A stretch of 64,000 nt of DNA. Source: an uncultured Lachnospiraceae bacterium (GTDB lineage Bacteria > Bacillota > Clostridia > Lachnospirales > Lachnospiraceae). The stretch covers positions 1 through 64,000 of the forward strand of contig CAMWFQ010000004.1 in assembly GCA_947173495.1 (NCBI GenBank). The letters are read 5' to 3'. Below, piece after piece: positions 1-34,639 of the stretch. The notes beneath the pieces were generated by a model, which did not search any database, was not told the DNA's origin, and saw nothing but the letters and a program-made list of their open reading frames with translations. Made by a program: the position numbers and the translations under genes. Every line of letters starts with the position of its first letter. Position 1 is the stretch's first letter.

Positions 1-94
1 GAATAATTTGCCTGAAAAGTGACATTGGACGAGGGTAATAGTTTGCTGTTTAACATATACGGGAAGCCTGCATCCGCAGGATACCCCGGAGGGA

Positions 95-913
95 GTGAAG
101 GAGCGGCTAGAGCAGCAGCCGCCCCGTTCCTTTGCGGGGCATTCCGTCAGCGTCAGTGATGTGCTGGTATTTTACAGGAAAGGCACGGTTATCTCTTACT
201 ATGTGGAAAAAACGGGATTTACGGTGATAGAAAATTTTATCCATAAAGAAAGCGGTCCGTCAGGAGCAGCAGTCTCCATCGACACAACCAATTTTAAAAT
301 CGAAGGGAAAGCCGGGAGCTGGCTTGCCTTTGACAGTATCAGGCTGGAAGGGCAGGAGTTTTTCCTGATGGAACATGAGGCTTACGGGAAGGAAGCCGCA
401 TGGGTGGTGGTAGACGAGGCCGGGCGGCTGGCGGCGGATAACGTGCGGAATGGCTTTGATGGGGAAGTGCGGGGGAAGCTGGAAGAGTACCTCCGCACTT
501 CACAGCCGGAAGCGGAGGGGCGCTGCAGGGAAGGAACCCGGCCACAGCCTGGACCTGAACCGTCAGAACCGGAAAGAGCGCAAATCTGTCAGGAGGAAAT
601 GAAGCCGCACCAAAAAGAATCCGGGGAAGATATGCCAAAGCTTGATAACTGGCAGAAATATATGGAAAACGGGGAATACCTAAGGAGCGCAGAGATCAGC
701 GGGGAGCAGAATTATAACCTGATTGACGGAAGGAAAAACAACGGATATAAGGCTCCGCCCGTGGCAAAGAGTATGCCGCCGAAAGAGAAACCGCAGGGCA
801 GGTCTTCGGTGCTGGCAAAGCTCCACAAAAAACAGGCGGAGATTGCAAAGAGCAGTGGGAAAAAGGAGCGGCAGGCAGCGGTGGAAAAGGATGTGGAGCG
901 GGAACGGAAATAG
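95..913 (+). CDS. YodL/DUF4316-type mobile-element protein, 5' end damaged
   Basis: Accessory protein of the kind found in clostridial conjugative elements; its biochemical role is unknown. Residues ~12-60 carry a YodL-like block (GHSVSVSDVLVF) and residues ~195-220 a DUF4316-like block (SAEISGEQNYNLIDG), separated by a Glu/Pro-rich linker. Homologous-looking coding sequence continues upstream of the GTG at 95 (about 53-94, including GSLHPQDTPEG). That frame runs into a TGA at 20-22 and has no usable start, so the native N-terminus appears lost by deletion or frameshift. The GTG is the only start available and its Shine-Dalgarno spacing is poor. The domain names rest on recognised motifs, not a search. 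The gene lies at the window edge beside the mobilisation module, which fits an element accessory role. Confidence 0.55.
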   Translation: MKERLEQQPPRSFAGHSVSVSDVLVFYRKGTVISYYVEKTGFTVIENFIHKESGPSGAAVSIDTTNFKIEGKAGSWLAFDSIRLEGQEFFLMEHEAYGKEAAWVVVDEAGRLAADNVRNGFDGEVRGKLEEYLRTSQPEAEGRCREGTRPQPGPEPSEPERAQICQEEMKPHQKESGEDMPKLDNWQKYMENGEYLRSAEISGEQNYNLIDGRKNNGYKAPPVAKSMPPKEKPQGRSSVLAKLHKKQAEIAKSSGKKERQAAVEKDVERERK

Positions 914-954
914 AAAAAGGGAGTGTCCGGCTGTGGCCGGATGCTCCCTTTTTT
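914..954 (+). terminator. Rho-independent terminator
   Basis: A 13-bp stem (GGGAG..TCCGGC pairing with GCCGGA..GCTCCC, two wobble pairs) with a short TGTG loop is followed by a T6 run. It is flanked by A5 on the 5' side, so it may also act for the converging DUF1349 gene. Confidence 0.85.
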
Positions 955-978
955 CTGGAAGAAAATCATATTTCCCTA

Positions 979-1581
979 TTAGTCTGGCTGCTGCCCATCA
1001 TGGGCTTTCCATTGGCATTCTGTAATCTCCATGTCAGTAAAAACCGCTTTAAAGGAAGAATCTTCCGGTGAACAGGCATAGATACCAAAGCGGATTTTTC
1101 CATTGCCTTTGTCCATATGGCAGATACGCATCTGGCTGAAATTTACGCCGTCTTCGGAACATTCAATACAGTAGTCGTCTTCCCGGCGGCTAAAGCGGTA
1201 CCACATAGATTTTATGGCGGCAGAAACAGCGGTAGTCGCCCAGTCAGAATACCCGCCATTCGTTACAACGCTGCCTAAATGCTGGAAAGATTCGTTTTCA
1301 TATTCGATGGAACCCTTAAGCCAGTTTTCGCTGTCCAGATACATAACAATGCCGCATTGGTCAAACCGGTGATGGCTTTCGGAAAAATCTGTTTTCACTA
1401 TGAAACTGAAAAATTTCTCATCCGTTTCCATTTGAAAAACCGGCGCATTATCATTTTGGAAATGATAGTAGGTCCTCTGCCATAAGTCAGTGTGGGGCGC
1501 TGTGGTAATTTCTATCCTGCTGTCGTCAATGTGGAAGCTTTTCGGCTGTCTCGTCCATTGGAATTTAGAAATATCCATCAT
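979..1581 (-). CDS. DUF1349 family protein (concanavalin-like fold)
   Basis: A 200-residue protein without signal peptide or membrane segment, matching the DUF1349 family (a concanavalin A/lectin-like beta-sandwich sometimes annotated as a regulator of enolase). Recognisable blocks are the N-terminal KFQWTRQPKSF, the central DQCGIVMYLDSENWLKGSIE and the C-terminal IRFGIYACSP. The length is normal for the family. Start ATG at 1581 is preceded by GGAGGAAAG at good spacing. It is convergent with the YodL-like gene and shares its orientation with the relaxase, as a passenger of the mobilisation module. Its role is not established; carbohydrate binding is a guess from the fold only. Confidence 0.8.
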   Translation of the reverse strand: MMDISKFQWTRQPKSFHIDDSRIEITTAPHTDLWQRTYYHFQNDNAPVFQMETDEKFFSFIVKTDFSESHHRFDQCGIVMYLDSENWLKGSIEYENESFQHLGSVVTNGGYSDWATTAVSAAIKSMWYRFSRREDDYCIECSEDGVNFSQMRICHMDKGNGKIRFGIYACSPEDSSFKAVFTDMEITECQWKAHDGQQPD

Positions 1582-1659: not shown

Positions 1660-3318
1660 TTATTCCCGTACTTGCTTATGTGCCGGTCTGCTGTTCGTAA
1701 GTCCCAGCGCGGCATGGATATTGGTACATACAGTATCCAGTTCTTTCTTCTGCTCACGGTAGGAATAATATCTCTCCTGCCTTTCTTTTTTCTCTGCCAG
1801 CAGCTTTTCCTTCTCCGCTTTCAGCGTCTGCAGGGTGGGAAGCTTCCCATCGCCTGCTTTCTCCTTCAGGAATTTCAGTGCAGTTTCATACAGCGCAATC
1901 TTTGCAGAGTTTTCCTGCCGGAACTGCGCTTTGTTTTTGGATTTCTGTAATTGTGCGTATACGGATTTATTGGCAAGGTACTGTCCGGTATAATGGATCT
2001 GCTCGTTGACCTGCCGGAGCCTTGCTTCGGTGTCTTTTAACTCCTTTAAGGAAGAAGAAGTCTGTCCCCTTAATTCAGCAAGCCGCCCTTCCATGCTTTC
2101 AAGGGTGTCATACCCATGCTCCTGCACATAGGAAAGGGTCTTTGCCATGTTCTGCAGGTTGGAAAGCTTCACTTTATTTGCGTAGGCCCTGCTCTGCTGG
2201 GCTTTGATACAGTTCTGTAAATCCGTTACCAGACGGAGCCCGGATTTCTCAAACGGGGCAGTGGATGTGTCCATACCAGCAGAAATTTCATGCTGGTTGA
2301 CAGAAGGCTTCCTGCTGCGAATATTTTCTTTCGGCAAAATTTCTTTCTGCACAGTCTGGTCTTTTTCTATATTTTTAAGCCGGGAATTATTCCCAATCAG
2401 TTCCATAAGATAATCTTTTTTGTAGTGTGTCCCAAGGTTCCTGCCGGTAATCGGTTTATCCCGGTCAGGGTGGAGGTAGCTGAACCTGCCCCGGCTGATT
2501 TTAAATATGATGTTGAATTTCTCTGAAAGTATCTGTTCAAATTCTTTCAGGTCATGGGCGGAGGCGGCAGCTTCCTCAATCGAAGTGCGGAGGTATTCCT
2601 TCTGTGTCTGGAAGACGGTGATGCGCGGCGTGATGCCCTCTGAAAGCATCTGTCTGTTGCGCTCCTCCAATTTTTTCTGTCCGGTCCGTTTCGCATGGTA
2701 TTCTTTTTCCGTCACCTTCCGTTCCGCTTTGGTGAGCAAATTCACCTGATGGAGATTTTCCCGCTGGCATAAATCCATGAGAGACTGTTTCAGGCAAACG
2801 AGATAATTGTTTGTCAGGTGATGCTTGCGCCCGGCGCGAGAGTCGCAGTCACGCTCCATAAAGTCCTGCCGCTCCACATCATTTTTCCGCAGGCTGTTGA
2901 TGACGATATGCACATGGATGTTGCCGCTGCCATTGTGCCCGTCCATATGGGTGCAGACAAGGGCCTGATGCCCGGGGAAATTTTTCCTGCAATATTCCAG
3001 CCCAAGCTGCTGCGCTTGCTCCCCGGTCAGCCCGCATTCATCCCTGTCTTTCGGATCGAAGCTGATGATGTAGTGGTGGGATTTGATCTCGTCATAGGTC
3101 CGGTTTTTATGGAAGCGGGCATTCAGTTCCTTACATTCCATATCAAAAGAAAACGGGTCACATTCCACCCCGTCAAGGTAATATTCTTCCCGGAGCTGCG
3201 TATTTCCGTTTTCATCAAGGATTGGTTTCCCGGTATATTCGTCATGCTGGAAAATGAGGTAACGTTGTGCTTCCCCATAATCTGCATTCTTACTTGCTAT
3301 GTGTTTGAGTATCGCCAT
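1660..3318 (-). CDS. MOBP-like relaxase (mobilisation nuclease)
   Basis: Relaxase that would nick oriT and pilot single-stranded DNA during conjugative transfer. Residues ~1-220 form the relaxase/VirD2-like domain with the metal-binding motif HMDGHNGSGNIHVHIVIN (HxD...HxHxxxN). A likely nicking tyrosine sits near the N-terminus in RYLIFQHDEYTG. Residues ~340-530 are predominantly charged helix or coiled coil, as is usual for the C-terminal part of these proteins. Length 552 aa is typical. The start overlaps the end of the upstream mobC-like gene by 29 nt, indicating translational coupling. No coupling protein or type IV secretion genes are visible, so transfer may need functions to the left of the window or from a helper element. 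Confidence 0.92.
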   Translation of the reverse strand: MAILKHIASKNADYGEAQRYLIFQHDEYTGKPILDENGNTQLREEYYLDGVECDPFSFDMECKELNARFHKNRTYDEIKSHHYIISFDPKDRDECGLTGEQAQQLGLEYCRKNFPGHQALVCTHMDGHNGSGNIHVHIVINSLRKNDVERQDFMERDCDSRAGRKHHLTNNYLVCLKQSLMDLCQRENLHQVNLLTKAERKVTEKEYHAKRTGQKKLEERNRQMLSEGITPRITVFQTQKEYLRTSIEEAAASAHDLKEFEQILSEKFNIIFKISRGRFSYLHPDRDKPITGRNLGTHYKKDYLMELIGNNSRLKNIEKDQTVQKEILPKENIRSRKPSVNQHEISAGMDTSTAPFEKSGLRLVTDLQNCIKAQQSRAYANKVKLSNLQNMAKTLSYVQEHGYDTLESMEGRLAELRGQTSSSLKELKDTEARLRQVNEQIHYTGQYLANKSVYAQLQKSKNKAQFRQENSAKIALYETALKFLKEKAGDGKLPTLQTLKAEKEKLLAEKKERQERYYSYREQKKELDTVCTNIHAALGLTNSRPAHKQVRE

Positions 3319-3682
3319 GAAAATCTCCTGCCATCTTAATCACTTCATATTTCATTTCATAAATCTGTGCAATGCACCTGTTTATCGCCTGCCGCATTTC
3401 CTGAGAGTGGATTCCTCCCTGGTTAAAGTGGCGGGCAATTTGATTCAGATTGCTCCCGATTTTCCCTAACTCTGCGACCAGCTTTTTTAGTTCCGGCACA
3501 TCTGCCACAATCTCATACTTGACGTTTACTTTCCCTTTCATTACCTGTTTTCGGAGAAATTCTGCAAGGGGCAGCCCTGTCTTGCGGGCATTTTCCATGA
3601 TGATTTCATACTCTGTGTCAGTGAAGCGGAGCATGGCACAGTGGCTGCGCTTTAATTCTTTTTCTTTTTTCGGTCTTGCCAT
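3290..3682 (-). CDS. MobC-like relaxosome accessory protein
   Basis: A 130-residue basic protein with the plasmid mobilisation (MobC/ribbon-helix-helix) pattern: a lysine-rich N-terminus (MARPKKEKELKR), a central helix-rich DNA-binding part (FTDTEYEIIMENARKTGLPL) and the characteristic LGKIGSNLNQIARHFNQGG near residue 90. Such proteins help the relaxase melt and nick oriT. I chose ATG 3682 because the family starts at MARPKK; longer reading upstream has no support. The gene lies directly upstream of the relaxase, overlaps its start and faces the hairpin-rich putative oriT, as expected for a mobCA operon. Confidence 0.88.
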   Translation of the reverse strand: MARPKKEKELKRSHCAMLRFTDTEYEIIMENARKTGLPLAEFLRKQVMKGKVNVKYEIVADVPELKKLVAELGKIGSNLNQIARHFNQGGIHSQEMRQAINRCIAQIYEMKYEVIKMAGDFHGDTQTHSK

Positions 3683-3699
3683 TTCGTATCCTTTCCCGT

Positions 3700-3910
3700 G
3701 ATGGAGCTGGACAGCGCTGCCATGGAATGGCAGCACTGTCGTGCTTCATCACGCTGCGAGAGTGTAACGGTAGCCAGTTCTGCATATCCGGAGGATATGC
3801 CACCGAGGGTATGGGGCGCGGAGGCCCCATCAAGTAAGCCGGAGTGGCTCAAAACGCACGAAGTGGGTTTTGAGTTACGCAGGCGAAACTTGCTCTTCGG
3901 GAATTGAAAG
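3700..3910. other. putative origin of transfer (oriT) region
   Basis: Non-coding DNA immediately upstream of mobC holds four successive inverted repeats: 3710-3723/3727-3740 (13 of 14 paired), 3782-3789/3793-3800, 3811-3817/3824-3830 and 3848-3855/3867-3874. The last is followed by GAAACTTGCTCTTCGGGA. Hairpin arrays next to mobC-relaxase genes are the usual form of oriT. The nic site cannot be fixed from sequence alone. Confidence 0.6.
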
Positions 3911-4326
3911 CCCTCCTATAATAAAAGCCGATTTGAGATAACCTGTGCTACCGCACGGGAAAGAAAAATTTTGAGAAAATGTAGATTGGCAGGGAAGGGG
4001 GAAGTGGTGGCAGCGGGCAAGGGCAGCAAAGCTGCGCTTGCGTAAGAGCGCTCCCGGAGCGAAGCGGCGGGATACGGTATGTGCGGAGGAACGGAGCGCA
4101 TTCCGTAAGCGACTGGGTGGGGAAAGCGTGGATAGCTGCACGATGGAGCGGAATGGTGCAGCCAAAGAAAGCATAGCGAGAGCAAAGCAGGGATATTAAA
4201 ATAGGGAAACTGGGAATATTGGGGAATTTAAATAAGGTAGTCATTTTCTTGAAATGCTGTCTTGTTTTTATGATATTGGATTTGATACAATGTAAATCAT
4301 AAAAATATGAGAAAGGCAGAAACAGC
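3911..4326. other. hairpin-rich intergenic stretch, no gene
   Basis: No supported gene. Between about 4010 and 4200 there are several short perfect hairpins with small loops (for example GCAGC-AAA-GCTGC type and GCGCT...AGCGC), resembling those at 15835-15977. From 4200 on the sequence is AT-rich and carries the likely promoter of cobO. Confidence 0.5.
4262..4291 (+). promoter_or_regulatory. possible sigma-70 promoter of cobO
   Basis: TTGTTT (4262-4267) and TACAAT (4286-4291) are separated by 18 nt, 35 nt before the cobO start. It is a weak match, offered as the best candidate. No riboswitch is evident here. Confidence 0.3.
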
Positions 4327-4854
4327 ATGGTGCATTTATATACAGGAGAGGGAAAAGGGAAGACCAGCGCGGCAATCGGGATTTGTATACGGGCGGCGGG
4401 ATGGAACAGGCAGATTTGTTTTGCGCAGTTTATGAAGGGAAATGATACGGGAGAGGTGCATGTGCTTGAAAGTTTGCCCGCTGTGACAGTTCTGCGGAGC
4501 AGGAAGAATTTCGGTTTTTATCATTCCATGTCCGGGGACGATAAAGCAGAGCTTACGGATATCCATAATGAAATTCTGGACAGGATTTTGGAAATTGCAG
4601 AAAGCGGTAAGTGTGATATGATTATTCTGGATGAAGTGACGTACCCGGTAAAATGGAATTTACTGGATATGGAAAAGCTGCAAAGGCTTCTGGAGATGGG
4701 GAAAGGAGAGTCGGCAGGGAAGATGGAACTGGTGCTGACCGGCCGGGGCGCGGAGGATGTTTTGTCAGATGCTGCCGATTATATTACGGAGATGGTATGT
4801 GTGCGCCACCCTTTTGAAAAAGGGGTGAAGGCGCGAAAAGGGATTGAATTTTAG
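4327..4854 (+). CDS. cobO: corrinoid adenosyltransferase, CobO/BtuR type
   Basis: ATP:cob(I)yrinic acid a,c-diamide (or cobalamin) adenosyltransferase, which attaches the 5'-deoxyadenosyl upper ligand to the reduced cobalt of corrinoids. The P-loop GEGKGKTSA lies at residues 7-15, as in CobO. Further family blocks are QFMKGNDTGE, the acidic IILDEVTYPVKWNL near residue 100 and ELVLTGRGA near 140. At 175 aa it is slightly shorter than many CobO proteins because it lacks the N-terminal arm. It lies just upstream of the riboswitch-controlled operon with a MetH-activation-like gene between, suggesting a separate transcript that serves the same pathway. Confidence 0.93.
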   Translation: MVHLYTGEGKGKTSAAIGICIRAAGWNRQICFAQFMKGNDTGEVHVLESLPAVTVLRSRKNFGFYHSMSGDDKAELTDIHNEILDRILEIAESGKCDMIILDEVTYPVKWNLLDMEKLQRLLEMGKGESAGKMELVLTGRGAEDVLSDAADYITEMVCVRHPFEKGVKARKGIEF

Positions 4855-4862: not shown

Positions 4863-5573
4863 ATGGAAAGGAGTATGGCGGCAGAGATGGCGGCTTTTTT
4901 TACAGAACTGCTGGATGGCTTTTTGAAGGCAGACTTTTTGAAGATGGTGCATAAGAAATTTCATTATGGGGAGGAGCAGTTGGAAACTCTGATGGCTGTT
5001 GCCAGGGAAATGCTGCCGGTTATACATGAGGAGGCTTTCTGGGAAAGAGGAGTGGAACACAGTTACGGGGGAGCGCAGGGAGAACCTGGCATGGTCTGTG
5101 AAGAGGTTGTGATGTCTTTGGGGAAGGGATTGGATGACCTGCAGGAAAATTACAGCAGGAAAGGAATGCTGTTGGAAAGTTATATGCTGGAGACTTTAGC
5201 CAGTGAATTATTATTGCGGGGTTACAGCGCTTATAACCGATATGTCGGGATGGAAGGGAAATGGCATGTGGCAAGGTATCATTTCCCCGGGAGTGAGGAA
5301 AAATTTCCTTTGGAAATATTGCCGGATATATTAGGGAAATTGAGTGACAAGGTAAAATGTAATAGCTGCTTTTACATGAATCCAAAAAAAAGTGTGGCTT
5401 TTGTGGCCGAACTGACACAGGATATGGCAGTCCATTGTGAGGGCATTTGTATAGGATGCGGCAGGAAAAATTGCCCCAATAAGATAGCGGAGAACCCGGC
5501 AGAAAGCCGCCTGATGGCAAAGGCGGATATACCATTGAACTATGGATATGGCAGGATTTTTGGGAAAATCTAG
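4863..5573 (+). CDS. MetH activation-domain-like protein with Cys-rich C-terminus
   Basis: A 236-residue soluble protein starting 9 nt after cobO, so probably co-transcribed with it. Residues ~75-185 resemble the S-adenosylmethionine-binding reactivation domain of B12-dependent methionine synthase: a helix-rich LLESYMLETLASELLLRGY, then ARYHFPGSEEKFPLEILPDI and the CFYMNPKKSVAFVAELT strand. The C-terminus contains a CEGICIGCGRKNCPNK cysteine cluster (CxxxCxxCxxxxC) that could bind a metal or Fe-S cluster. Stand-alone versions of this domain occur in Clostridia, where they are thought to act with corrinoid proteins. Assignment is by pattern, and activity on any particular corrinoid enzyme is inference. 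Confidence 0.6.
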   Translation: MERSMAAEMAAFFTELLDGFLKADFLKMVHKKFHYGEEQLETLMAVAREMLPVIHEEAFWERGVEHSYGGAQGEPGMVCEEVVMSLGKGLDDLQENYSRKGMLLESYMLETLASELLLRGYSAYNRYVGMEGKWHVARYHFPGSEEKFPLEILPDILGKLSDKVKCNSCFYMNPKKSVAFVAELTQDMAVHCEGICIGCGRKNCPNKIAENPAESRLMAKADIPLNYGYGRIFGKI

Positions 5574-5704: not shown

Positions 5705-5769
5705 TTATAGAAATTGAATAAATAACGTTCAGGTGTCAGGACAATGCAGTATTCATATATGCAATACGC

Positions 5770-5960
5770 ATAGCATGTGTTTAGGCATTGGTTCTGGTGA
5801 AAAGGGAAACAGGTGCAAATCCTGTACGAACTCGTCACCGTAATTAGGGAGCAGAAGCCGATATGTCACTGGATGGCAAAGAGAAATTGATCCGGGAAGA
5901 CGGCGGATGCGCTGGTTTGTTTACAAACCTCGATCTTTAAGCCGGGAGACCTGCCTGAAT
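5770..5960 (+). promoter_or_regulatory. cobalamin riboswitch (AdoCbl class)
   Basis: The leader has the conserved blocks of the cobalamin riboswitch in order: GGTGAAAAGGGAAACAGGTG around 5796-5815, AATCCTGTACGAACTC around 5818-5833, ATATGTCACTGG near 5861-5872, GGGAAGACGG near 5894-5903 and the B12 box GCCGGGAGACCTGCC at 5941-5955. It lies between a strong promoter and a terminator ahead of cbiK. Adenosylcobalamin binding is therefore expected to repress the whole downstream operon, probably by premature termination. Confidence 0.93.
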
Positions 5961-6015
5961 GTTGTACGGAAACGTTTGTTTCAGGCCACGAGTAATTGGT
6001 TGTACGTTTGAACTT

Positions 6016-6048
6016 GCAGAAAGCGTCTTTGCGTTCTGCAGGCTTTTT
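6016..6048 (+). terminator. possible expression-platform hairpin
   Basis: GCAGAA..CG pairs with CG..TTCTGC (6016-6039) and is followed by AGGCTTTTT. It sits just downstream of the B12 box and could belong to the riboswitch expression platform. Confidence 0.4.
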
Positions 6049-6181: not shown

Positions 6182-7489
6182 ATGGAAATGAAAAGGAAAT
6201 TAGTTGCTGGTTTATTGATTGGAGTAATGACCTGCTCTCTGGTTCTGACAGGGTGTTCCGGGGATAGTCCGGCTTCAACGGCAAATGTGTCGGAGAGCGA
6301 GGGCGCAGAGGCGCAGCCGGAAACAGAAAATGCGCAGCCGGAAGCGGAAAGTGAGCCGGAGCAGACAGAGGCGGCAGACGGGGAGAGTGGAGCAGGGGCA
6401 GAAAGCGGCGCTGACACCGATCAGGCGGCAGCCGATGAGGTGGCGGATTTGATTGACGCAATTTATGTTCAGACAAGGACAGATGAGACGGACGGGCAGT
6501 GTGCCAGGGCAAAGGAGGCATGGGACGCGCTGACAGATACCCAGAAGGAAATGGTGGAAGGTGAAAATGCCGACCCGGATTATTTTGGCAGGGATACCGG
6601 TGACGCATCGAAGGATGACCCCCGCAATCAGGACGAGATTGGGGAGAATGAGATTCTGGTGGTCAGCTTCGGAACTTCTTTTAATGACAGCCGCGTGGCT
6701 GATATTAAGGGAATTGAAGACGCCATACAGGAGGCGAACCCGGACTGGTCCGTGCGAAGGGCATTTACCGCACAGATTATCATTAACCATGTGCAGGCAC
6801 GGGATAATGAGTTTATCGACAACATGGATCAGGCACTGGAACGCGCGGCCCAAAATGGGGTGAAGAATCTGGTGGTGCAGCCTACCCATCTGATGCACGG
6901 TGCGGAATATGATGAATTGATGGAATCGGTGGAAGCTTATCAGGATAAATTTGAGACGGTAAAGATTGCGGAGCCCTTGCTTGGCGATGTTGGTGCAGAT
7001 GCCTCAGTTGTCAATGAGGATAAGGCAGCGGTAGCGGATGCGATTCTCGCGGCAGCTGTGGCGGATGCGGGCTATGGAAGTCTGGCAGAGGCACAGGAAG
7101 ATAACACGGCATTCGTGTTTTTAGGACATGGCACTTACCATACAGCAAAGGTAAGTTACAGCCAGATGCAGACGCAATTGACGGACATCGGCTGTGTTAA
7201 TGCTTTTGTCGGAACAGTGGAAGGCGACCCGGAAGAAACCGCTTGTGAGACAGTGATGGAGGCAATTGCCAAGGCCGGCTATACGAAGGTGGTTCTGCGC
7301 CCGCTGATGGTAGTAGCAGGCGACCATGCAAACAATGACATGGCAGGAGAGGATGAAGATTCATGGCTGAGTACGTTCAAAGCATCTGGTAAATTTGAAA
7401 GTGTGGACGCGCAGATCAGCGGACTTGGTTCGATTCCTGCAATTCAGGAATTGTATGTACAGCATACAAAGGATGCGCTGGAGCAGTGA
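6182..7489 (+). CDS. cbiK: lipoprotein sirohydrochlorin cobaltochelatase CbiK
   Basis: Anaerobic cobaltochelatase of the CbiK family, which inserts Co(II) into sirohydrochlorin at the entry to the anaerobic B12 pathway. The chelatase domain spans about residues 155-430, with ILVVSFGTSFNDSR, the His-bearing QPTHLMHGAEYDEL (~232), FLGHGTYH (~313) and VVAGDHANNDMAG (~376). Unlike cytoplasmic CbiK it begins with a lipoprotein signal (lipobox VLTGC, cysteine ~23), followed by a Glu/Ala-rich linker (~30-80) and a small helical segment (DALTDTQKEMVEG). The protein should therefore sit outside the membrane. Periplasmic CbiK in Desulfovibrio and surface IhtB in Porphyromonas are known precedents. RBS AGAGGAG precedes ATG 6182. 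It is the first gene after the riboswitch and is followed by importer genes. Confidence 0.93.
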   Translation: MEMKRKLVAGLLIGVMTCSLVLTGCSGDSPASTANVSESEGAEAQPETENAQPEAESEPEQTEAADGESGAGAESGADTDQAAADEVADLIDAIYVQTRTDETDGQCARAKEAWDALTDTQKEMVEGENADPDYFGRDTGDASKDDPRNQDEIGENEILVVSFGTSFNDSRVADIKGIEDAIQEANPDWSVRRAFTAQIIINHVQARDNEFIDNMDQALERAAQNGVKNLVVQPTHLMHGAEYDELMESVEAYQDKFETVKIAEPLLGDVGADASVVNEDKAAVADAILAAAVADAGYGSLAEAQEDNTAFVFLGHGTYHTAKVSYSQMQTQLTDIGCVNAFVGTVEGDPEETACETVMEAIAKAGYTKVVLRPLMVVAGDHANNDMAGEDEDSWLSTFKASGKFESVDAQISGLGSIPAIQELYVQHTKDALEQ

Positions 7490-7589
7490 CGGAGAAGGCA
7501 TGGCTCAGCAGACGGGGATAAAAGGCGGCAGTGAAGGTATCCGACTGCTGTAGAGAAATGCTCCGGAAAAGTTGAAAGAGGAGTTATTA

Positions 7590-8552: not shown

Positions 8553-8565
8553 GAGGTAGGGGGAT

Positions 8566-9810: not shown

Positions 9811-9880
9811 ATCAAAAATAAAGATTTTTGTCGCTCGTTATAAAACCGGGAAAAGGAAATATCGGGAAAAAAGGAGACAT

Positions 9881-9910
9881 ATGGAGGAAAGGGCAGTGAT
9901 AAACATATGA
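9881..9910 (+). CDS. possible 9-codon leader minicistron
   Basis: ATG at 9881 follows a strong AAAAAAGGAGAC Shine-Dalgarno and encodes MEERAVINI. Its TGA (9908-9910) overlaps the permease start (ATGA), so translation could be coupled. There is no evidence that the peptide itself has a role. Confidence 0.3.
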   Translation: MEERAVINI

Positions 9911-11735: not shown

Positions 11736-11737
11736 CA

Positions 11738-14471: not shown

Positions 14472-14494
14472 GGAGCAAGTACGGGGATAGGATT

Positions 14495-15840: not shown

Positions 15841-15977
15841 GAAGTACTTCTAATCACTCGCAGCAAAGGCTGCTTCGCGAAGAAGTACTAAGTCTGCTTT
15901 GCAGACTTTTCTCACACAGGAGAATGCGTGAAATACGGCATTCTCCGCATGGATTTGAGATTCCGCAAAGCGGAATC
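15835..15977 (+). other. cluster of five perfect hairpins between cobS and cobU-like gene
   Basis: An outer 9-bp stem (15835-15843/15909-15917) encloses an 8-bp stem (15843-15850/15882-15889), GCAGC/GCTGC (15860-15864/15869-15873) and AGTCTGC-TTT-GCAGACT (15891-15907). Two further hairpins follow: 15919-15927/15938-15946 (9 bp) and 15959-15966/15970-15977 (8 bp, AAA loop). There is no T-run, so these are not simple terminators. They may act on mRNA stability or coupling within the operon. Confidence 0.85.
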
Positions 15978-19748: not shown

Positions 19749-19758
19749 GAGAAGCATT

Positions 19759-27107: not shown

Positions 27108-27379
27108 AAAATACAGTTATATTTAGTTGCTGAAACGGTCTGGCTGGCAGGGTCAGGCTGTTTTTGTTTTAAGCATAAAGTAAAAATCGTTCGACAAAAT
27201 TAATGAAACACGGACGGAAAAGAAAGAATGATGTTGGGAAAAGGCGGATGGCGCTGGCGTAAAAAGGCGGAAAATGTAAAAAGGCTTGCAAGTGCCCTTT
27301 TATGGGAAAAAGGGCACAGCCAGTCACTTCCCAAAAAACAGGGACAACTTTATAATAAACACCAATCGGGAGGAACAGG
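27108..27379. other. operon end and intergenic region
   Basis: No gene seen. A hairpin GTGCCCTTTT...AAAAGGGCAC (27292-27317) and a TATAAT at 27351 precede the XRE gene. I see no strong T-tailed terminator directly after cbiA. Confidence 0.4.
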
Positions 27380-27715
27380 ATGATAAGCAGGGGAAGCACG
27401 GATCTAGGGGGTATAGTGAAAGAATTGCGCATGGCAAAAGGGATGAGCAGGGTGGAGGTGTCGGAAGCGGCGGGCATCAGCGAATCCCATTTAAAGAAGA
27501 TAGAGACCGGGGCAAGGCAGCCGGGGCTGGGCACATACCAAAAGGTAATGGCAGTACTGGGAGCGGATATTGTCATTAAATTTATTGCTGGAACTGTGAA
27601 GGGGGACTGTACCGAAAGGATGCAGAAAGTGCTACTGGAAAGTACAGAATCACAGGCACTTTTTCTGGTAAAGGTATTGGAGACCATGGCGGCAGAACTA
27701 AAGAAAATCGAGTAG
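27380..27715 (+). CDS. XRE-family helix-turn-helix regulator
   Basis: A 111-residue DNA-binding protein. The Cro/CI-type helix-turn-helix occupies residues ~10-60 (VKELRMAKGMSRVEVSEAAG, SESHLKKIETG, PGLGTYQKVMAVLG). The C-terminal half is helical and probably mediates dimerisation. Start ATG 27380 follows GGAACAGG. It stands alone between the cobalamin operon and the recombinase module, so it could regulate element excision or transfer; this is positional inference. An 11-bp perfect hairpin (27735-27745/27767-27777) follows it. Confidence 0.85.
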   Translation: MISRGSTDLGGIVKELRMAKGMSRVEVSEAAGISESHLKKIETGARQPGLGTYQKVMAVLGADIVIKFIAGTVKGDCTERMQKVLLESTESQALFLVKVLETMAAELKKIE

Positions 27716-27777: not shown

Positions 27778-28548
27778 TGTGACTACAGGCTGTAAGATGG
27801 AAATTTCTACTTTTTGGATAAATGCTGTGGATAAAACCCTTATGGGCATGGCTTCCATGGACGGGCAGCGTACCTTGACAACAAAAGCCCCGGCAGCTTC
27901 AACTATATGCCGGAGTGGAATATCAGTATGTATGGACACAAAATATTCGGAACACCTGAAAGGGTGATGAGGGGAGAGCTTCGCGGAGAGATATTTGTCT
28001 GTGCATATGGCGGGTGGCAGCGCCATAGGGCAGATCAAACGAGGAACCGTAACAGGAGAAGGAAAAATAGGAGCGGCATCCCCGGCATGGGGCAGCAGTG
28101 GCAGGCTGTCTTGAAACGCTGGATGATAATGATACCACTGCCGGAGATCACGGCAGCCGGAGCGGCGTCCGGGATGTGCTGCAGCGTGGAAGGGTGCTAC
28201 AGGGCATTGGGCAGTCGGCCAGACGGTCTTTACATATTCCGGCCCACGCCGGGGGAGGGAAAATCAAAAACCATGACAGGGCAATGATTTATGCGGATTT
28301 GCGGCGAACTGCCCTGTATGGCGTGTGGGAATTATTTTGTGGATAAAATCTTTCAGATTCAGATACAGATTTCAGGGAAAGGCTGGACGCATACATATTT
28401 TTATGATACCAGATAACAGCGGTATCTATCAGGCCCAGGCAAGGGGGACACCAGATAAAAGTATATACCGGACAGGACGTAATGCATTGCGCCGGATATG
28501 GCACAGCATTATGGCCTGCCTTATTTTTTCATATCGGGAGGTGTCTGC
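27778..28548 (+). other. about 770 bp of possible decayed coding DNA
   Basis: No intact gene is supported. One frame from about 27,871 to 28,030 is coding-like (YLDNKSPGSFNYMPEWN, then ISMYGHKIFGTPERVMRGEL), but it lacks a start and runs into an Arg-rich, random-looking tail. Short coding-like patches in other frames (for example YADLRRTALYGVWELF near 28,285-28,335) suggest a frameshifted relic. I do not recognise the parent family. Confidence 0.35.
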
Positions 28549-28797
28549 ATGACCGTGGAAGAGCACAGGAGGTTTCTTGGGCAGGATTTTGAGGACGTGA
28601 AGATGGAGGAATTAAAGGACATAAGCAGGATAAGGATTGACCGGGACAGGACGGTGGAGGAAAAAAAGGAACAGTACCTTGGGAAAGTAGGGAACCCCTA
28701 CCTCGTAAGGGTCGGAAGCACAATGGTAAAGATACGCTTTGCCAATAACGGGGTAAGTTTCGAGGATGCCTTTGAAGGCCTGCTCCTTATGGGGTAA
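28549..28797 (+). CDS. DUF6870-like small protein
   Basis: An 82-residue soluble protein of unknown function: EEHRRFLGQDFEDVKMEEL at the N-terminus, a central RIDRDRTVEEKKEQYLGKVG and a C-terminal NPYLVRVGSTMVKIRFANNG. The pattern matches small proteins (DUF6870) repeatedly found beside large serine recombinases in Clostridia. ATG 28549 follows GGGAGG at good spacing. It precedes the first recombinase by 180 nt, suggesting a role in recombination or its control, but nothing in the sequence shows this. Confidence 0.75.
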   Translation: MTVEEHRRFLGQDFEDVKMEELKDISRIRIDRDRTVEEKKEQYLGKVGNPYLVRVGSTMVKIRFANNGVSFEDAFEGLLLMG

Positions 28798-28979: not shown

Positions 28980-30668
28980 ATGGGTAAAACAGTAAACAGA
29001 ATCTACCATGCCGCCATCTATGTAAGGCTTTCCAAGGAAGACGGCGATGTTGCCGGTCCTGCAAAGGCAGAGAGCAACAGCATTTCCAACCAGAAAAATC
29101 TGATCAGAGATTTCCTGAAAGACAAAGACGATATTATAGTGGTTTCCGAGCGCGTGGATGACGGTTACAGTGGCTCTAATTTTGAGCGCCCCGGCTTCCA
29201 GATGATGATGGAGGACATCAGAAGGGGAAAAGTTGACTGTGTGGTCGTGAAGGACCTGTCACGTTTCGGGAGGGAGTATATTGATTCCGGGAAGTATATC
29301 GAAAGGCTGTTCCCGGCCCTTGGGGTGCGCTTTATCGCCATTAATGACCATATCGACAGCAGGGAGGAAAGCGGCAGGGACGATATTGTCGTCCCGTTCA
29401 AGAACTTGATGAATGACGCCTACTGCCGGGATATTTCCATAAAGATACGCAGCCATCTGGAAGTGAAGCGGAAGAACGGTGAGTACACAGGCGCATTTAC
29501 GCCCTATGGCTATAAGAAAGATGAAAATGACAGGAACAAACTGGTCCCCGATTTATATGCGGCAGGAGTTGTGAAAGACATATTCCGTATGAAGCTGCGC
29601 GGGATGAGCCAGGCCGCCATCGCGGACCGGCTGAACGGGCAGGGGGTATTGTCCCCGGTGGAATACAAGCACAGCCTTGGCATCCGCATTCAGGATCACT
29701 TTAAGACGCATGAACAGGCAGAATGGAGCCCGGTGGCTGTACGCAGGATACTTGAAAACGAGGTATATGTGGGGACGCTGGTGCAGGGCAGGCATTCCAC
29801 GCCGAACCATAAGGTAAAGAAGATTGTGGACAAGCCAGAGGAGGAATGGGTCAGGGTAGAGGATAACCACGAGCCGGTCATCAGCAGGCGGGAGTTTGCT
29901 ATCGTCCAGAGACTTCTCGGCATGGACACGAGGACGTCACCGAATGAGGAGGAAGTCTATGTGCTGGCAGGGATTGCGGTGTGCGCGGAGTGCGGCGCAC
30001 CCATGGTCAAGCGCAGCGTCCCGGCAGGCGGGAAGGTCTATTCCTATTATATCTGCTCCAAAAATGCTGCGACAAAGGAGTGCGGGCCGCACCGCATCCC
30101 GAAGGGGAAGCTGGAAAGCCTTGTATTCGAGGTGCTGAAGACGCATATCGCCAACGTCCTTGATACCGGGAGGATATTGGAATATGTCAATACAGTACCG
30201 TTCCAGGAGTTGGAAATTAAGGAACTGGAAAGGCAGAAGGAGGCGAAAGAGCAGGAGGCGCAGCGGTGCCGGGAACTGCGGGATATGTTGTACGAGGATT
30301 TAAAAGACGGGGTCGTTTCAAGAGAAGATTATGCGGAGCTGTATGAAGGCTATACCGGCAGGAGGAAGAAAGCGGAGGAGGCAGTGCGGAAACTCCGGCA
30401 TGAGATACAGGACGTGATGGATGCCAGAACGGATAAATATGAATGGCTCCGTTTTTTTAAAGAATACCAGAACATCAGCGTGTTAAGCAGGATGGCGGTG
30501 GTGGAGCTGGTTGACCGGGTAAGGGTGTCTGACAAAAACCATGTTGAGATTGACTTTAATTTTCAGGACTGCTTCCAGTCGGCGCTCCGCCAGTTACAGT
30601 CTGCGGGCTGCACGGTATGCACAGGGGAAAACGGAAGAATAGATATCCAGAGAAGGGAGGTCGTGTGA
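28980..30668 (+). CDS. large serine recombinase 1
   Basis: Site-specific large serine recombinase, 562 residues. The N-terminal resolvase domain has the nucleophilic serine in AAIYVRLSKEDGD (~15), VVKDLSRFGREYIDSGKYIE (~85) and the YCRDISIKIRSHLEVKRKNG linker. The recombinase domain follows (~165-300). A zinc ribbon CAECGAPM...YYICSKN lies at ~335-365, then a coiled coil (~405-480) and a basic C-terminus. RBS AAGGAGG lies upstream. First of three tandem recombinases; the next gene starts 1 nt after its stop, so they form one operon. Confidence 0.95.
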   Translation: MGKTVNRIYHAAIYVRLSKEDGDVAGPAKAESNSISNQKNLIRDFLKDKDDIIVVSERVDDGYSGSNFERPGFQMMMEDIRRGKVDCVVVKDLSRFGREYIDSGKYIERLFPALGVRFIAINDHIDSREESGRDDIVVPFKNLMNDAYCRDISIKIRSHLEVKRKNGEYTGAFTPYGYKKDENDRNKLVPDLYAAGVVKDIFRMKLRGMSQAAIADRLNGQGVLSPVEYKHSLGIRIQDHFKTHEQAEWSPVAVRRILENEVYVGTLVQGRHSTPNHKVKKIVDKPEEEWVRVEDNHEPVISRREFAIVQRLLGMDTRTSPNEEEVYVLAGIAVCAECGAPMVKRSVPAGGKVYSYYICSKNAATKECGPHRIPKGKLESLVFEVLKTHIANVLDTGRILEYVNTVPFQELEIKELERQKEAKEQEAQRCRELRDMLYEDLKDGVVSREDYAELYEGYTGRRKKAEEAVRKLRHEIQDVMDARTDKYEWLRFFKEYQNISVLSRMAVVELVDRVRVSDKNHVEIDFNFQDCFQSALRQLQSAGCTVCTGENGRIDIQRREVV

Positions 30669-30669
30669 C

Positions 30670-31941
30670 ATGGCAAGAAAATCAAGGAAAACTGATTTTG
30701 TGAATACGGGAAAAGTGGCAGCGGAAACGGCTGTAAAGGGAGAGAAGCCCGTATTCCGGGCGGGGCTGTACGCAAGGCTCTCCCTTGAAAGCGGGGCAAA
30801 TAAGGAACGCGGGACCATAGAAAACCAGATGAGGCTTTTGAAAAAATTTGTGGAGGGTGCGGATGATATCGTAGTGGAGCGTGAATATATGGACGTTTCC
30901 AAGACCGGCACAAATTTCGAGAGGGACGGCTTTGAGGAAATGATGCGCGACATCAGGGACGGACGCATCAACTGCGTGGTTGTAAAGGACCTGTCTCGGC
31001 TTGGCAGGAACTATGTGGAGGCTGGAAATTATGTGGAACGGATATTCCCTTTCTTTGAAGTGCGTTTCATTGCAGTGACTGACGGATACGATTCCGCAAG
31101 GGAAGACGCCGACCTCTCTGTGTGTATGGCGAATATCTTCAATGAGTTTTATTCGAGGGACCTGGCGAAAAAAATCCGGTCTGCCTACCGTTCCCACTGG
31201 AAAAAGGGCAGCAATGTGTGCGGGAACCTTGCATACGGGCTCATGGGAGACCCGCTGGATAAGCACCGTATCACAGCTGACCCGGACGCTGCCCCGGTGG
31301 TGCGGCGTATTTTTGAAATGTTTGTGAATGAGAAAATGGGGTATGCGCAGATAGCAAAAACCCTGAATGACGAGGGTGTGATCGGGCCGAAGGCATACAA
31401 GCATTTCAAAAGAACAAAGGAACTGCCGGAAAATTATAACCCTGAGTGGAGGGGCAACACTGTTTCACGGATGCTCTGCAACCCTTATTATGCAGGGGAC
31501 AGCAGGCACAACGAGTATGGCAGTGACAGTTTCGCGGAAAAAAAGCAGTGGCAGGAGCCGGAAGAAAACTGGATCATCGTGGAGGGCACCCATGAGCCGG
31601 TCGTGCCAAGGGCGCTGTATCTCAAAGCGCAAGAAAGGTTAAAGGAAATCCATGGGAACTCCCCGAAGTATGGGAAGAAAAACGGGGGCGAGCTTGCCTG
31701 CCGGAATTTCTATAAAAAAAAGATCGTATGCGGTGACTGCGGCGCAACCATGTACCTTATTAAACATCCGAACGGGACAACGGATTTTGTATGCGGCAGG
31801 CACCAGACAAAGAAGGTATGTAGCAGGAAAAGCGTTTCTGAAAATGCTGTCAATGATGAAGTTTTCCGTGTCATCCATGCCCATATGAACGTATATGTTG
31901 ACAGCATGGAAATGTTAAGGCGGATGAACCGGAAAGCATGA
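30670..31941 (+). CDS. large serine recombinase 2, catalytic part (split gene)
   Basis: A 423-residue serine recombinase. Ser nucleophile in AGLYARLSLESGANKERG, then VVKDLSRLGRNYVEAGNYVE, EFYSRDLAKKIRSAYRSHW and a zinc ribbon CGDCGATM...FVCGRHQTKKVC. It ends abruptly after the ribbon (MEMLRRMNRKA) where the other two recombinases continue into a coiled coil. That missing coiled coil is encoded by the next frame, which begins with ATGA overlap. Either one or two bases were lost or gained near 31,930-31,940, or the protein is made as two coupled chains. Start ATG 30670, preceded by GGGAGG. Confidence 0.9.
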   Translation: MARKSRKTDFVNTGKVAAETAVKGEKPVFRAGLYARLSLESGANKERGTIENQMRLLKKFVEGADDIVVEREYMDVSKTGTNFERDGFEEMMRDIRDGRINCVVVKDLSRLGRNYVEAGNYVERIFPFFEVRFIAVTDGYDSAREDADLSVCMANIFNEFYSRDLAKKIRSAYRSHWKKGSNVCGNLAYGLMGDPLDKHRITADPDAAPVVRRIFEMFVNEKMGYAQIAKTLNDEGVIGPKAYKHFKRTKELPENYNPEWRGNTVSRMLCNPYYAGDSRHNEYGSDSFAEKKQWQEPEENWIIVEGTHEPVVPRALYLKAQERLKEIHGNSPKYGKKNGGELACRNFYKKKIVCGDCGATMYLIKHPNGTTDFVCGRHQTKKVCSRKSVSENAVNDEVFRVIHAHMNVYVDSMEMLRRMNRKA

Positions 31942-32360
31942 AAAAGTATGACGTGCTTTCAAAGGAGATCCAGAAGCTCCACCATGAAATGGAAAAGGTG
32001 GCGGCGCACAGGCAGCATTTATATGAGGATTATGCGGAACGGCTGATTGACGCGGGGCAGTATGAAGCCTTTGCCGATAAAGATGCAGCCGCAGAAGCGG
32101 AACTCCGGAAAAGGATAAATGAGGTTACGGAATACCAGAGAAAATATGACCGGAATTACTGTGCCAGCCAGGACTGGGAAGCAGCGATCAACAAGTACCG
32201 GAATATCCGGCACCTGACAAAAAAGATGGTGGACGCATTTGTGGAGAAGATTGAGATTTTTTCAGCAGGGAAAGTGACCGTGCATTTGATATATGATGAT
32301 ATGCTGGACGAGCTGGTGGCTTACACGAAGGAAAGGGAGGCAGAAGGCCATGGGGAATAA
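31938..32360 (+). CDS. large serine recombinase 2, C-terminal coiled-coil part
   Basis: A 140-residue chain lacking any catalytic motif. It is the natural continuation of the preceding recombinase: a helical YDVLSKEIQKLHHEMEKVAA, the AERLIDAGQYEAFADKD helix and the terminal KKMVDAFVEKIEIFSAGKVT beta segment seen at the end of large serine recombinases. It overlaps the upstream stop by 4 nt. It could be a frameshifted half-gene or a translationally coupled second subunit. No strong ribosome binding site lies directly before it, so coupling would be required. Confidence 0.8.
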   Translation: MKKYDVLSKEIQKLHHEMEKVAAHRQHLYEDYAERLIDAGQYEAFADKDAAAEAELRKRINEVTEYQRKYDRNYCASQDWEAAINKYRNIRHLTKKMVDAFVEKIEIFSAGKVTVHLIYDDMLDELVAYTKEREAEGHGE

Positions 32361-33948
32361 AAAGACTGCAATCTATATCCGCCTTTCTGATGAAGACAGT
32401 CATGTTGACAGAACCGTAAAGGCGGAGAGCAACAGCGTTGCGGCGCAGAGGCTTCTGATCAGGGACTATATGCAGAGGAACAGCCTTTCCGCTGCCCCGG
32501 AAGATACATCAGAGTACGTGGACGATGGTTTTTCAGGCACAAATTTCCAGCGGCCGGCATTCCGCAGGATGATGGATGACGCAAAACGCGGGGAGATCGG
32601 CTGCATTATCGTCAAGGATTTTTCAAGGTTCGGGCGAGACCATCTGGAGACTGGCAACTACCTTGAACGGATCTTCCCGCTGCTGGGGATACGGTTCATT
32701 TCCGTGAATGACCAGTTTGACAGTGAGGACTGCATGGGAATGACAGGGGGAATGAGCGTCGCCCTGAAAAACATCATCAATTCCATGTACAGCCGGGATT
32801 TATCAAAAAAAGTGAAGAGCGCAATGGGGACAAGGGCCGCCCGCGGTGAATACATGGGCGCGTTCGCTCCTTACGGATATATAAAGAACCCAGATAATGT
32901 CCACCAGCTTATTCCCGATGAAGAAGCGGCGGGAATTGTTCGGACGATATATACAATGGCGGCGGAGGGGAAGAAAAAGCCGGAGATTGCACGGTTCCTT
33001 AACGAGCAGGGCATCCCTACCTGCATGGAACATTTTCAGGCGCTGGGGCTGAAAAGAAAAAGCTATAAGGAAAAAGAGAAAAAGCTGTGGACCATTACAA
33101 CCATTGGCGACATGCTGAAGAAAGAGGTTTATCTCGGAAAGACCATCTGGAGGAAAACAAGGCAGGCGGAAGTCGGCTCGAAGCGTCAGATTAAAAATGA
33201 CAGGTCTGAATGGATTGTCATAGAGGGGACGCATGAGCCCATTGTGTCGCAGGAACTGTTTGACACAGCGAATGCAAAGGCGTTCACGTATGAGAAGAAA
33301 AAGGTACCTGCAGGGCGCAAACCGCAGCCAATCCTTTTCTGCCCGTACTGCGGAAGGCGACTTGTGCTGACCAGCTGGGGAAAATCCTACCGGTGCGGGG
33401 AGGCGGCAACTTCTGGCATTGCGGAATGCAGGACGCTCCATGTGGACAAAGGTCGGCTGGAAAATGCCATACTGTCCTGCACCCGCACCATGGCGGGCAT
33501 GGTGTCGGCGGAGGCGGACAGAAAGAAAAAAGAACTGTCGCAGACGGTATCTGTTGAAGAAGAAATAAGGAAGCTGGAAGCGGAAGGAAAGAGGCTTTCC
33601 GCAAGGAAACTCAGGCTTTATGAGGATTACCGCTCCGGGAATATCACAAAAGACAAGTACCGTAAAGAGTATGAAACCGCCGCCAGCCGGATTCTGGAAA
33701 TAGAAAAGAGGATACCGGAGCTTAAGGACGAAGTTATCCGGATCAGGGAACAGGTGCAGCACCTGAAAGAGAAGGAGACGGAGTTGGATGGGCTGGCAAT
33801 ACTTGAAACTTTTGACAAGGGTAGGCTGTCTATGGTGATTGACAGTGTACAGGTCTACAGCGAAAAGAGGATAGAGATTGTCTGGAAGATGAATGACTGG
33901 TTCTTCCCCGGAGTAGCAGGGGAGAAAGAAGTGGTTGCATTGCAATAA
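32350..33948 (+). CDS. large serine recombinase 3
   Basis: A 532-residue serine recombinase with Ser nucleophile in TAIYIRLSDEDSHVD, IIVKDFSRFGRDHLETGNYL and SRDLSKKVKSAMGTRAARGE. The recombinase domain (~155-290) is followed by a zinc ribbon CPYCGRRL...YRCGEAATSGIAEC and a coiled coil (~390-475). ATG 32350 was chosen because GGGAGG lies upstream and the conserved N-terminus starts there; it overlaps the previous gene by 11 nt. All three recombinases differ clearly in sequence, so they are old paralogues rather than a recent duplication. A terminator follows. Confidence 0.95.
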   Translation: MGNKKTAIYIRLSDEDSHVDRTVKAESNSVAAQRLLIRDYMQRNSLSAAPEDTSEYVDDGFSGTNFQRPAFRRMMDDAKRGEIGCIIVKDFSRFGRDHLETGNYLERIFPLLGIRFISVNDQFDSEDCMGMTGGMSVALKNIINSMYSRDLSKKVKSAMGTRAARGEYMGAFAPYGYIKNPDNVHQLIPDEEAAGIVRTIYTMAAEGKKKPEIARFLNEQGIPTCMEHFQALGLKRKSYKEKEKKLWTITTIGDMLKKEVYLGKTIWRKTRQAEVGSKRQIKNDRSEWIVIEGTHEPIVSQELFDTANAKAFTYEKKKVPAGRKPQPILFCPYCGRRLVLTSWGKSYRCGEAATSGIAECRTLHVDKGRLENAILSCTRTMAGMVSAEADRKKKELSQTVSVEEEIRKLEAEGKRLSARKLRLYEDYRSGNITKDKYRKEYETAASRILEIEKRIPELKDEVIRIREQVQHLKEKETELDGLAILETFDKGRLSMVIDSVQVYSEKRIEIVWKMNDWFFPGVAGEKEVVALQ

Positions 33949-33974
33949 AGTAATTATAGGAAATAATATGGAAA

Positions 33975-34010
33975 GGACATCATGGAAGCTGGTTCTGTGG
34001 TGTCTTTTCT
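33975..34010 (+). terminator. probable terminator after recombinase 3
   Basis: GACATCA (33976-33982) pairs with TGGTGTC (33998-34004, one wobble) and is followed by TTTTCT, 27 nt after the recombinase stop. Confidence 0.6.
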
Positions 34011-34045
34011 CTTGAGAAATAAAGTGTTATTTTTTTAGATTTTGC

Positions 34046-34639
34046 TTGACAAAAGCAGAGATGATAGGCTTGAGGTGGGAAGATGTCGATGTGGAGAACA
34101 GAACTATTGATATAAACCATTCCTTATACTATTTTGCAGGAAGAAGAAATAAATCATCAAGTAAATGGGTTATCAATGCGCCGAAGACGGAAGCGGGAAG
34201 CCGGGTGATTCCAATGGTAGATACAGTTTATACTGCTTTGATGGAAGAACGGTCACGACAGGCAGAAGAAGGAACATCGTGTCAGACGCAGATTGAGGAT
34301 ATGACAGGCTTTATTTTCTGCAATAGGTTTTATGAGGTATATACGCCGGAATCTATTAACCGGGAATTGAAGAGAATTATTGAGAATCACAATTCTACTG
34401 AAGAAGTCCGGGCTGTAAAAGAAAAAAGAGATGCGGTATTATTGCCTCAATTTACCTGTCATTATTTAAGACACACTTTTTGTACCAGATTATGCGAAGC
34501 GGATGTCCATATCAAAGTAATTCAGACAATTATGGGGCACAAAGATATTCAGACAACAATGGATATCTATGCAGAAGTAACCGAGTGGAAGAAAAAGGCT
34601 TTCCTCAATGAGATTTTTGAACAAATGAAACTTTTTTAG
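34046..34639 (+). pseudogene. tyrosine recombinase (integrase), N-terminally truncated
   Basis: The C-terminal catalytic part of a phage/Tn916-type integrase. It has IGLRWEDVDVENRTIDI, the HYLRHTFCTRLCEADVH box (HxxR) and IMGHKDIQTTMDIYAEV (His and the nucleophilic Tyr). The N-terminal arm-binding and core-binding domains are absent. Homology starts at about 34,050, just after where the first catalytic arginine (GLRKAE-type motif) should be; here the sequence reads CLTKAEMIGLRW. A TTG at 34046 could start translation but would give an inactive protein. The break lies only ~40 nt past the terminator of the serine-recombinase module, so that element probably inserted into, or recombined with, this gene. 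Confidence 0.9.

Follow-up and report, generated by a model that had tools for sequence, protein, structure and literature searches.

The stretch analyzed here (the window) is 64,000 nucleotides (nt) of DNA from an uncultured Lachnospiraceae bacterium (assembly GCA_947173495.1, contig CAMWFQ010000004.1, here C4). It has a cluster of cobalamin (vitamin B12) biosynthesis genes, the cob cluster, which lies between genes of a mobile element whose right end is inside a tyrosine recombinase (integrase) gene. The assembly is 4.58 Mb in 52 contigs; C4 is 219,671 bp and the window opens at its first base. The order from left to right is a YodL/LPD18 protein, a DUF1349 protein, a relaxase, a NikA/MobC-like protein, the cob cluster, an XRE-type regulator, a DUF6870 protein, three large serine recombinases and a broken tyrosine recombinase (Table 1). 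The G+C content is approximately 50% up to 34 kb, where it falls to 39%, and is 34–43% across the following 10 kb. Other genomes have these modules in the same order, which is therefore not a chance arrangement.

A preliminary description, made from the sequence alone, gave positions 1–34,050 as the range of the element and its cargo. Base 1 is the start of contig C4, and there is no element end there. The description placed a cobalamin locus in the middle (4,327–27,107), and a 22.8-kb cluster with family matches and a riboswitch is indeed present. The XRE-DUF6870-triple serine recombinase module on the right is recovered by Pfam matches, with the middle recombinase frameshifted. The right end does lie within a tyrosine recombinase gene, the C-terminal half of which is at 34046–34639, and the element end is corrected to position 34,059. 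In the module described on the left, the relaxase and the MobC-like protein are confirmed by Pfam; for the origin of transfer (oriT), the conserved stretch upstream of mobC is no more than a candidate region. An open reading frame (ORF) at 3948–4328 shows no family match.

Right end and integrase target

The three large serine recombinases are adjacent, have one orientation and are located near one end. A recombinase search of genome contigs yielded 15 loci; 14 of these, with C4 and contig C29 of the window's genome, give 16 aligned right ends from 13 genomes. The sequence TTGACAAAAGCAGA is identical at all 16, and the sequences part directly after GA. Two IMG/VR contigs have close recombinase modules, of which one (L193) shows the same right end and the other stops inside recombinase 3. 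The reading frame across the right end is LTKAE, followed by the C-terminal part of a tyrosine recombinase. Pfam Phage_integrase matches are present in 12 of 12 flanks tested (the window, Parablautia muri D42-62, here G029, and ten others), and the match starts at profile position 39 in 11 of them and at 53 in the remaining one; the scan left out L086 (29 amino acids (aa) before the contig end), L096, L098 and C29. An uninterrupted tyrosine recombinase gene in genome G015 is 81% identical in nt sequence over the C-terminal half found in the window. By tblastn the flanking integrases are 24–40% identical to that of the window in 11 of 15 loci (four are without a match at 1e-6), so the target is, by sequence comparison, a conserved region of tyrosine recombinases and not one gene.

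Both ends are found in a cob-free copy in genome G194 (contig C7, L084). The N-terminal half of an integrase ends ...LLFYSGCRIGD at the left junction, and a C-terminal half starts 116.7 kb further on, at the right junction. When joined by eye at the GA crossover the halves read SGCRIG-E-ALALTASDID, which we take to be the usual Box I motif of tyrosine recombinases. Defined ends with a recombined target are thus represented by the right end in the 16 aligned copies and by both ends in G194.

Contig C29 has a 7.7-kb segment (L067, approximately 7,306–15,020) with the same end type between the halves of another integrase gene. None of the three serine recombinases has a match in this segment. Its predicted products are a metallo-beta-lactamase-fold protein, a zeta-toxin-like kinase and a protein of 1,420 aa that has trypsin-like and NACHT-like matches, and the segment is possibly a defence passenger moved in trans. 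To the right of the element, window positions 41201–43000 encode a fusion of two domains, a BlaR1-type M56 peptidase and a penicillin-binding transpeptidase.

Table 1. Features of the element and its target gene in the window
Feature	Positions	Strand	Evidence
LPD18/DUF4316/YodL protein	95–913	+	Pfam; 81% aa identity to G029; tail of conjugation region, just after contig start
DUF1349 protein	979–1581	-	PF07081 5.1e-66
Relaxase (MobA/VirD2-like)	1660–3318	-	PF03432 3.4e-16; 83% aa identity to G029, G021, G194, P. intestinalis
NikA/MobC-like relaxosome protein	3290–3736	-	PF21983 6.1e-18; 84% aa identity in G029, G021, G194
Conserved stretch upstream of mobC, candidate oriT region	3737–4130		Covered by an alignment with G029 and G194 of 82% nt identity; divergence point shared by all three
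Cargo slot, filled by cob cluster alone	4131–27177	+	Element homology to G029 and G194 ends at 4129–4131, resumes at 27178–27180
cobO/btuR, corrinoid adenosyltransferase	4327–4854	+	PF02572 1.2e-52
236-aa protein kept next to cobO	4863–5573	+	No Pfam match; weak similarity to methionine synthase-like chain, PDB 1j6r E 0.0012
Cobalamin riboswitch	5766–5972	+	RF00174 83.1 bits, gathering 31.5
CbiK-like protein with lipoprotein-like signal	6182–7489	+	PF06180 4.2e-69 over 158–433; N-terminus ends ...LVLTGCS, lipobox by eye
Lipoprotein-like protein, sub-threshold NEAT match	7572–8552	+	PF05031 25 bits, cut-off 32.8; signal by eye
BtuF/C/D-like ABC importer, corrinoid/iron-complex type, three genes	8566–11735	+	Best NCBIfam models under cut-offs
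cbiP	11738–13273	+	NF001989 632.6 bits
cobT (ORF start too long)	13119–14471	+	TIGR03160 324 bits
cobU-like 1	14453–15082	+	NF004469 90 bits, under cut-off
cobS	15070–15840	+	PF02654 5e-49
cobU-like 2	15837–16373	+	PF02283 6.7e-12
cobC-like phosphatase	16346–16963	+	TIGR03162 1.6e-29, under cut-off
cbiB	16986–18026	+	TIGR00380 209 bits
cobD	18002–19099	+	TIGR01140 263 bits, cut-off 290.6
cbiC	19101–19748	+	NF006137 216 bits, under cut-off 294
cbiD	19699–20922	+	TIGR00312 437 bits
cbiF	20880–21641	+	TIGR01465 323 bits
cbiG	21638–22804	+	NF004466 264 bits, under cut-off 326
cbiH	22791–23573	+	TIGR01466 286 bits
cbiJ-cbiE-cbiT fusion	23539–25644	+	TIGR00715, TIGR02467, TIGR02469 above cut-offs
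cbiA	25641–27107	+	NF002204 440 bits
XRE-type regulator	27380–27715	+	PF01381 3.8e-11
DUF6870 protein	28498–28797	+	PF21757 1.3e-23
Large serine recombinase 1	28980–30668	+	PF00239, PF07508, PF13408
Large serine recombinase 2, split into 30670–31941 and 31938–32360	30670–32360	+	Frame comparison with 10 other copies
Large serine recombinase 3	32293–33948	+	PF00239, PF07508, PF13408
attR half-site TTGACAAAAGCA and core GA, element right end	34046–34059	+	Identical in 16/16 aligned copies; divergence right after GA
Target: C-terminal half of tyrosine recombinase gene, outside element	34060–34639	+	PF00589 4.2e-21 from profile position 39

Cargo slot and cob lineages

The slot of the window copy and that of G029 contain the cob cluster and little else. 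The slot of G194 contains 40 kb of other cargo, mostly carbohydrate genes by reading of the translations. A stretch of the window outside the element, 51515–52381, with a helix-turn-helix protein, is 71–72% identical to the left edge of the G194 slot. In P. intestinalis the relaxase region is 98.2% identical to that of P. muri; other genes come next, and no cob match is present in the 20 kb searched. No cob cluster was found in the isolate P. intestinalis D8-82. G029 and bacterium 1xD8-48 (G021) have YodL/LPD, relaxase, MobC, cob, XRE, DUF6870, three recombinases and a broken integrase, in that order. The inference in the preliminary description that these parts form one mobile unit is well founded, given the same order together with conjugation genes in G029 and G021, and both ends with other cargo in the same slot in G194.

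Many relatives carry cob outside the element, as would be expected if cob were an old chromosomal cluster of the genus beside which the element merely inserted, with misleading boundaries. This explanation is already contradicted and is extremely improbable: the two points at which element homology is taken up again, left and right of cob, are the same in G029 and G021 and, around other cargo, in G194, and the element end is 7 kb past cob. The neighbors of cob outside the element also differ where the contigs reach, and no cob cluster was seen at the same locus without the mobilisation and recombinase modules, as far as the contigs reach.

The cob cluster of the window is 85.4% identical to a cluster outside the element in genome G009 (rpoB 82.3%), and that of G029 is 92–96% identical, piecewise, to a cluster outside the element in genome G001 (rpoB 82.8%). 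The G009 and G001 clusters have no element genes next to them. The match of the window to G009 starts 74 bp ahead of cobO and ends 3 bp past cbiA, and that of G001 to G029 spans 134 bp before cobO to approximately 20 bp after cbiA. Eighteen sources were compared for twelve proteins encoded beside the G009 and G035 clusters; none of these proteins was found in the remaining 16 sources, although several of these have little flank. A DNA match to the cbiA region, of any strength, is found in 72 of 194 genomes. The trees built from six cob proteins and from rpoB, with 11 shared taxa, reject each other (approximately unbiased test, p 9.6e-8 and 1.4e-52).

A single entry of cob long ago, with evolution in step with the element and no second loading or replacement, would account for the slot, orientation and gene order that are alike in all three cob-bearing copies. 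It is improbable in view of the other comparisons. Element proteins of the window and G029 are 83–86% identical but their cob DNA is only 70.9% identical, and the two cob clusters group with different clusters outside the element with full support. The recombinase tree places the window copy with the cob-free G194 (0.925), and other cargo is present in copies whose relaxase regions are 98–100% identical. At least two cob lineages occupy the slot, which indicates that cob was loaded at least twice, or replaced. Since the trees reject each other, the neighbors differ and the match borders are nearly operon-exact, cob clusters have moved repeatedly between genomes and sites.

Two tracts are identical between the window and G009: 20830–21918 (1,089 bp, cbiF), amid 83–95% identity, and 5785–6045 (261 bp, riboswitch), in a cluster that is approximately 85% identical as a whole. 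They represent recent recombination or an assembly artefact.

The elements of G029 and G021 are 99.97% identical over 31,984 + 6,266 bp, cob included, and the rpoB genes of these two are 82.1% identical. Contamination or a strain mix-up could produce such identity in place of transfer; the estimated contamination of G021 is 7% and the isolate names are similar. However, the two copies interrupt different integrase genes and their left regions are only 92–98.4% identical, in pieces. In addition, the first 20 kb of the right-flank side of G021 beyond the element show no G029 match above 93%, which argues against contamination, with the limit that this flank is itself mobile-looking DNA and its species ownership is unproven. 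We consider contamination very improbable. With transfer between these species as the preferred reading, the ability to make B12 appears to move between species. Phage searches gave no copy of the element, and the CbiA relatives found there have less than 60% identity. A plasmid search with the element, in which cob DNA was not included, gave no copy and one 144-bp match.

Conjugation genes and pathway coverage

A relaxase and a relaxosome gene are present in the window's own element. On the same contig of G029, genes for VirD4-like, VirB6/TrbL (TrbL_2), PrgI, VirB4, NlpC/P60, topoisomerase and helicase-like proteins are located left of the relaxase. The G029 VirB4 is 59–67% identical to proteins annotated as CD1110 family, among the matches listed. 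The G029 homologue of the YodL/LPD protein comes after a 2,829-aa helicase-like protein, and the DUF1349 protein has no tblastn match in the G029 and G021 stretches searched. The conjugation genes of G029 are present in G194 at 94–100% aa identity, and those of G021 are read from a 92–98% match to the G029 region. Two P. muri genes are interrupted and are read as carrying nested elements: a 625-aa ORF that looks intron-like by eye divides the VirD4-like gene (L076 4340–8589), and the topoisomerase gene is divided by a segment that includes a serine recombinase (L056/L057, G029 34.0–43.4 kb).

The cob cluster has cbiA, B, C, D, E, F, G, H, J, T and P and cobD, U, S, T and O, with several NCBIfam matches under the curated cut-off, and is predicted to encode enzymes from corrin-ring methylation to cobalamin assembly. 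The 236-aa protein is beside cobO in the six clusters aligned and has a C-terminal Cys cluster; its predicted fold (mean predicted local distance difference test, pLDDT, 56) was too poor and was not used. The description of the pathway as near-complete stands for these cbi and cob genes and not for cbiL, hem and cobA, none of which is in the visible part of the element. A PF00590 search of this genome revealed five tetrapyrrole methylases, namely CbiF, CbiH, CbiE, a CobA-HemD fusion and a 16S rRNA methyltransferase, and hence no cbiL; a second cbiF/H/E set was not found in the genome, the set in the window being the only one. With this genome (G000), five cob-bearing genomes were searched, and the tetrapyrrole methylases of the other four (G009, G021, G029 and G035, the last 59% complete) include no CbiL either. 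Those encoded outside the cob cluster in these four are of CobA type or 16S rRNA methyltransferases.

Contig C7 of the window's genome has genes for a class-III aminotransferase, which is probably HemL, for HemB, for HemC fused to a siroheme-synthase domain and for CobA-HemD. Since these early tetrapyrrole genes are located elsewhere in the genome, the element would add the lower pathway only to a host already making precorrin-2. The preliminary description's proposal that mobilisation of the pathway would turn B12 auxotrophs into producers is limited accordingly, by the missing CbiL and by the dependence on hem and cobA genes of the host. The CbiK of the cluster looks like a lipoprotein and, because of the lipoprotein-like signals on it and on the NEAT-like protein, may serve uptake; the siroheme-synthase-like domain on C7 could serve as a cytosolic cobalt chelatase. 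The region 6182–11735, directly 3' of the riboswitch, has the CbiK-like and NEAT-like proteins with the BtuFCD-type importer, and resembles a tetrapyrrole/corrinoid uptake set more than a cytosolic chelatase.

Interpretation and relation to known elements

The window segment very probably represents the right-hand portion, 34 kb or more, of an integrative and conjugative element (ICE) resembling the Tn1549/CTn5 kind, in which the cob cluster with its own riboswitch is exchangeable cargo. The complete element would have the order conjugation genes, YodL/LPD, relaxase-MobC, cargo slot, XRE, DUF6870, serine recombinase triplet, attR. We infer a model in which a recombinase of the triplet acts, the element is excised and transferred by conjugation, and B12 would be produced. 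In this model the serine recombinases would recombine the element site (...TTGACAAAAGCA-GA-...) with an attB in tyrosine recombinase genes, where attB would be the codons of the conserved Box I motif (G-x-R-x-G-E) and the crossover would occur at the GA of the Glu codon. Insertion would split the target integrase gene and excision would restore it; the relaxase and type IV secretion would then move the excised circle.

Several results weigh against this interpretation. Besides the absence of CbiL, the lipoprotein-like CbiK and the contamination estimate of G021, the recombinases of the fifteenth locus (L097) are decayed and no end motif can be recognised there, with an integrase fragment adjacent, and cob is present in three of ten scorable right halves (the window, L091 and L094; the others are L084–L088, L093 and L097). 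A 7-bp deletion splits the middle recombinase of the window copy, the sole out-of-frame copy of 11 compared, and the left half of this copy was not found in the assembly. In this assembly, G029 topoisomerase-helicase DNA matches only the window's own positions 56–891, so the window copy is, from the comparisons made, an ICE by homology and not by its own sequence. A search with G194 left-end DNA gave no neighboring contig; the best match (C35, 70%) is tentatively taken as another locus. The N-terminal integrase half was not found with the N-terminal region of the G015 integrase, a weak test with a diverged homologue.

The deletion and the missing left half could signify a dead remnant, i.e., an old insertion that has lost its left half, with a decaying recombinase module and cob now fixed in the chromosome. 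This is possible but rather unlikely: base 1 is a contig edge, so that the absence of the left half is no proof of loss, the relaxase, MobC and recombinases 1 and 3 have open frames, and the attR half-site is fully identical. The window copy may be incomplete or immobile; its unseen left end and frameshifted recombinase weaken the case for the mobility of this copy and not that of the family, for which an ICE remains the preferred interpretation.

TnpX/TndX-type elements have GA as core; unlike the element described here, they have a single recombinase and other targets. Those compared (Tn4451 and Tn5397) share a large serine recombinase with the present element, and a 2-bp core is given for TnpX in the available text of PMC3158075. 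The same text describes CTn5/Tn6103-like conjugative transposons of C. difficile, which are similar in having a serine recombinase, a variable accessory module and nested smaller elements, and differ in having one large serine recombinase and other target genes; B12 cargo is not mentioned in that text. The VirB4 of relatives of the window element also matches CD1110-family proteins. A further close arrangement is that of streptococcal ICEs with a Tn1549-type conjugation module and a serine integrase triplet, described in the accessible part of Ambroset et al. 2016 (PMC4701971): they have three adjacent serine integrases near one end and insert inside a gene with very short repeats. Their targets there are hsdM, mutT and traG, the last belonging to another ICE, in contrast to the Box I region of tyrosine recombinases and the cob cargo here. 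The likeness to the Tn1549-type conjugation module is tentative and comes from the G029 genes, by the CD1110-family matches of VirB4 and the presence of PrgI, TrbL_2, NlpC/P60 and topoisomerase genes. In the same genus, cob clusters that lie outside the element are alike in gene order where complete, but do not adjoin mobilisation and recombinase modules.

Tn1549-type ICEs with serine integrase triplets are therefore already known. A literature search, with most subscription papers outside its scope, found neither a described ICE that carries a cob cluster nor a described case in which a serine recombinase inserts into tyrosine recombinase genes. A broader reading, for and against which we see about equal grounds, is that cob is a nomadic block swapped at nearly operon-exact borders between other sites and the ICE slot, and that the ICE is a hyperparasite homing on the Box I motif of tyrosine recombinases, which could enter a very large number of other mobile elements, silence them and at the same time take B12 synthesis across species.

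The ability to make B12 is unevenly distributed in gut bacteria and determines which of them depend on others. A conjugative-type element with most of the corrin pathway, near-identical in species 18% apart in rpoB, represents a concrete, testable route for gaining B12 synthesis. If conserved catalytic codons in the integrases of other elements are the target, a single recombinase module would have sites available in many hosts, and the targeting rule offers serine recombinases with a defined natural site.

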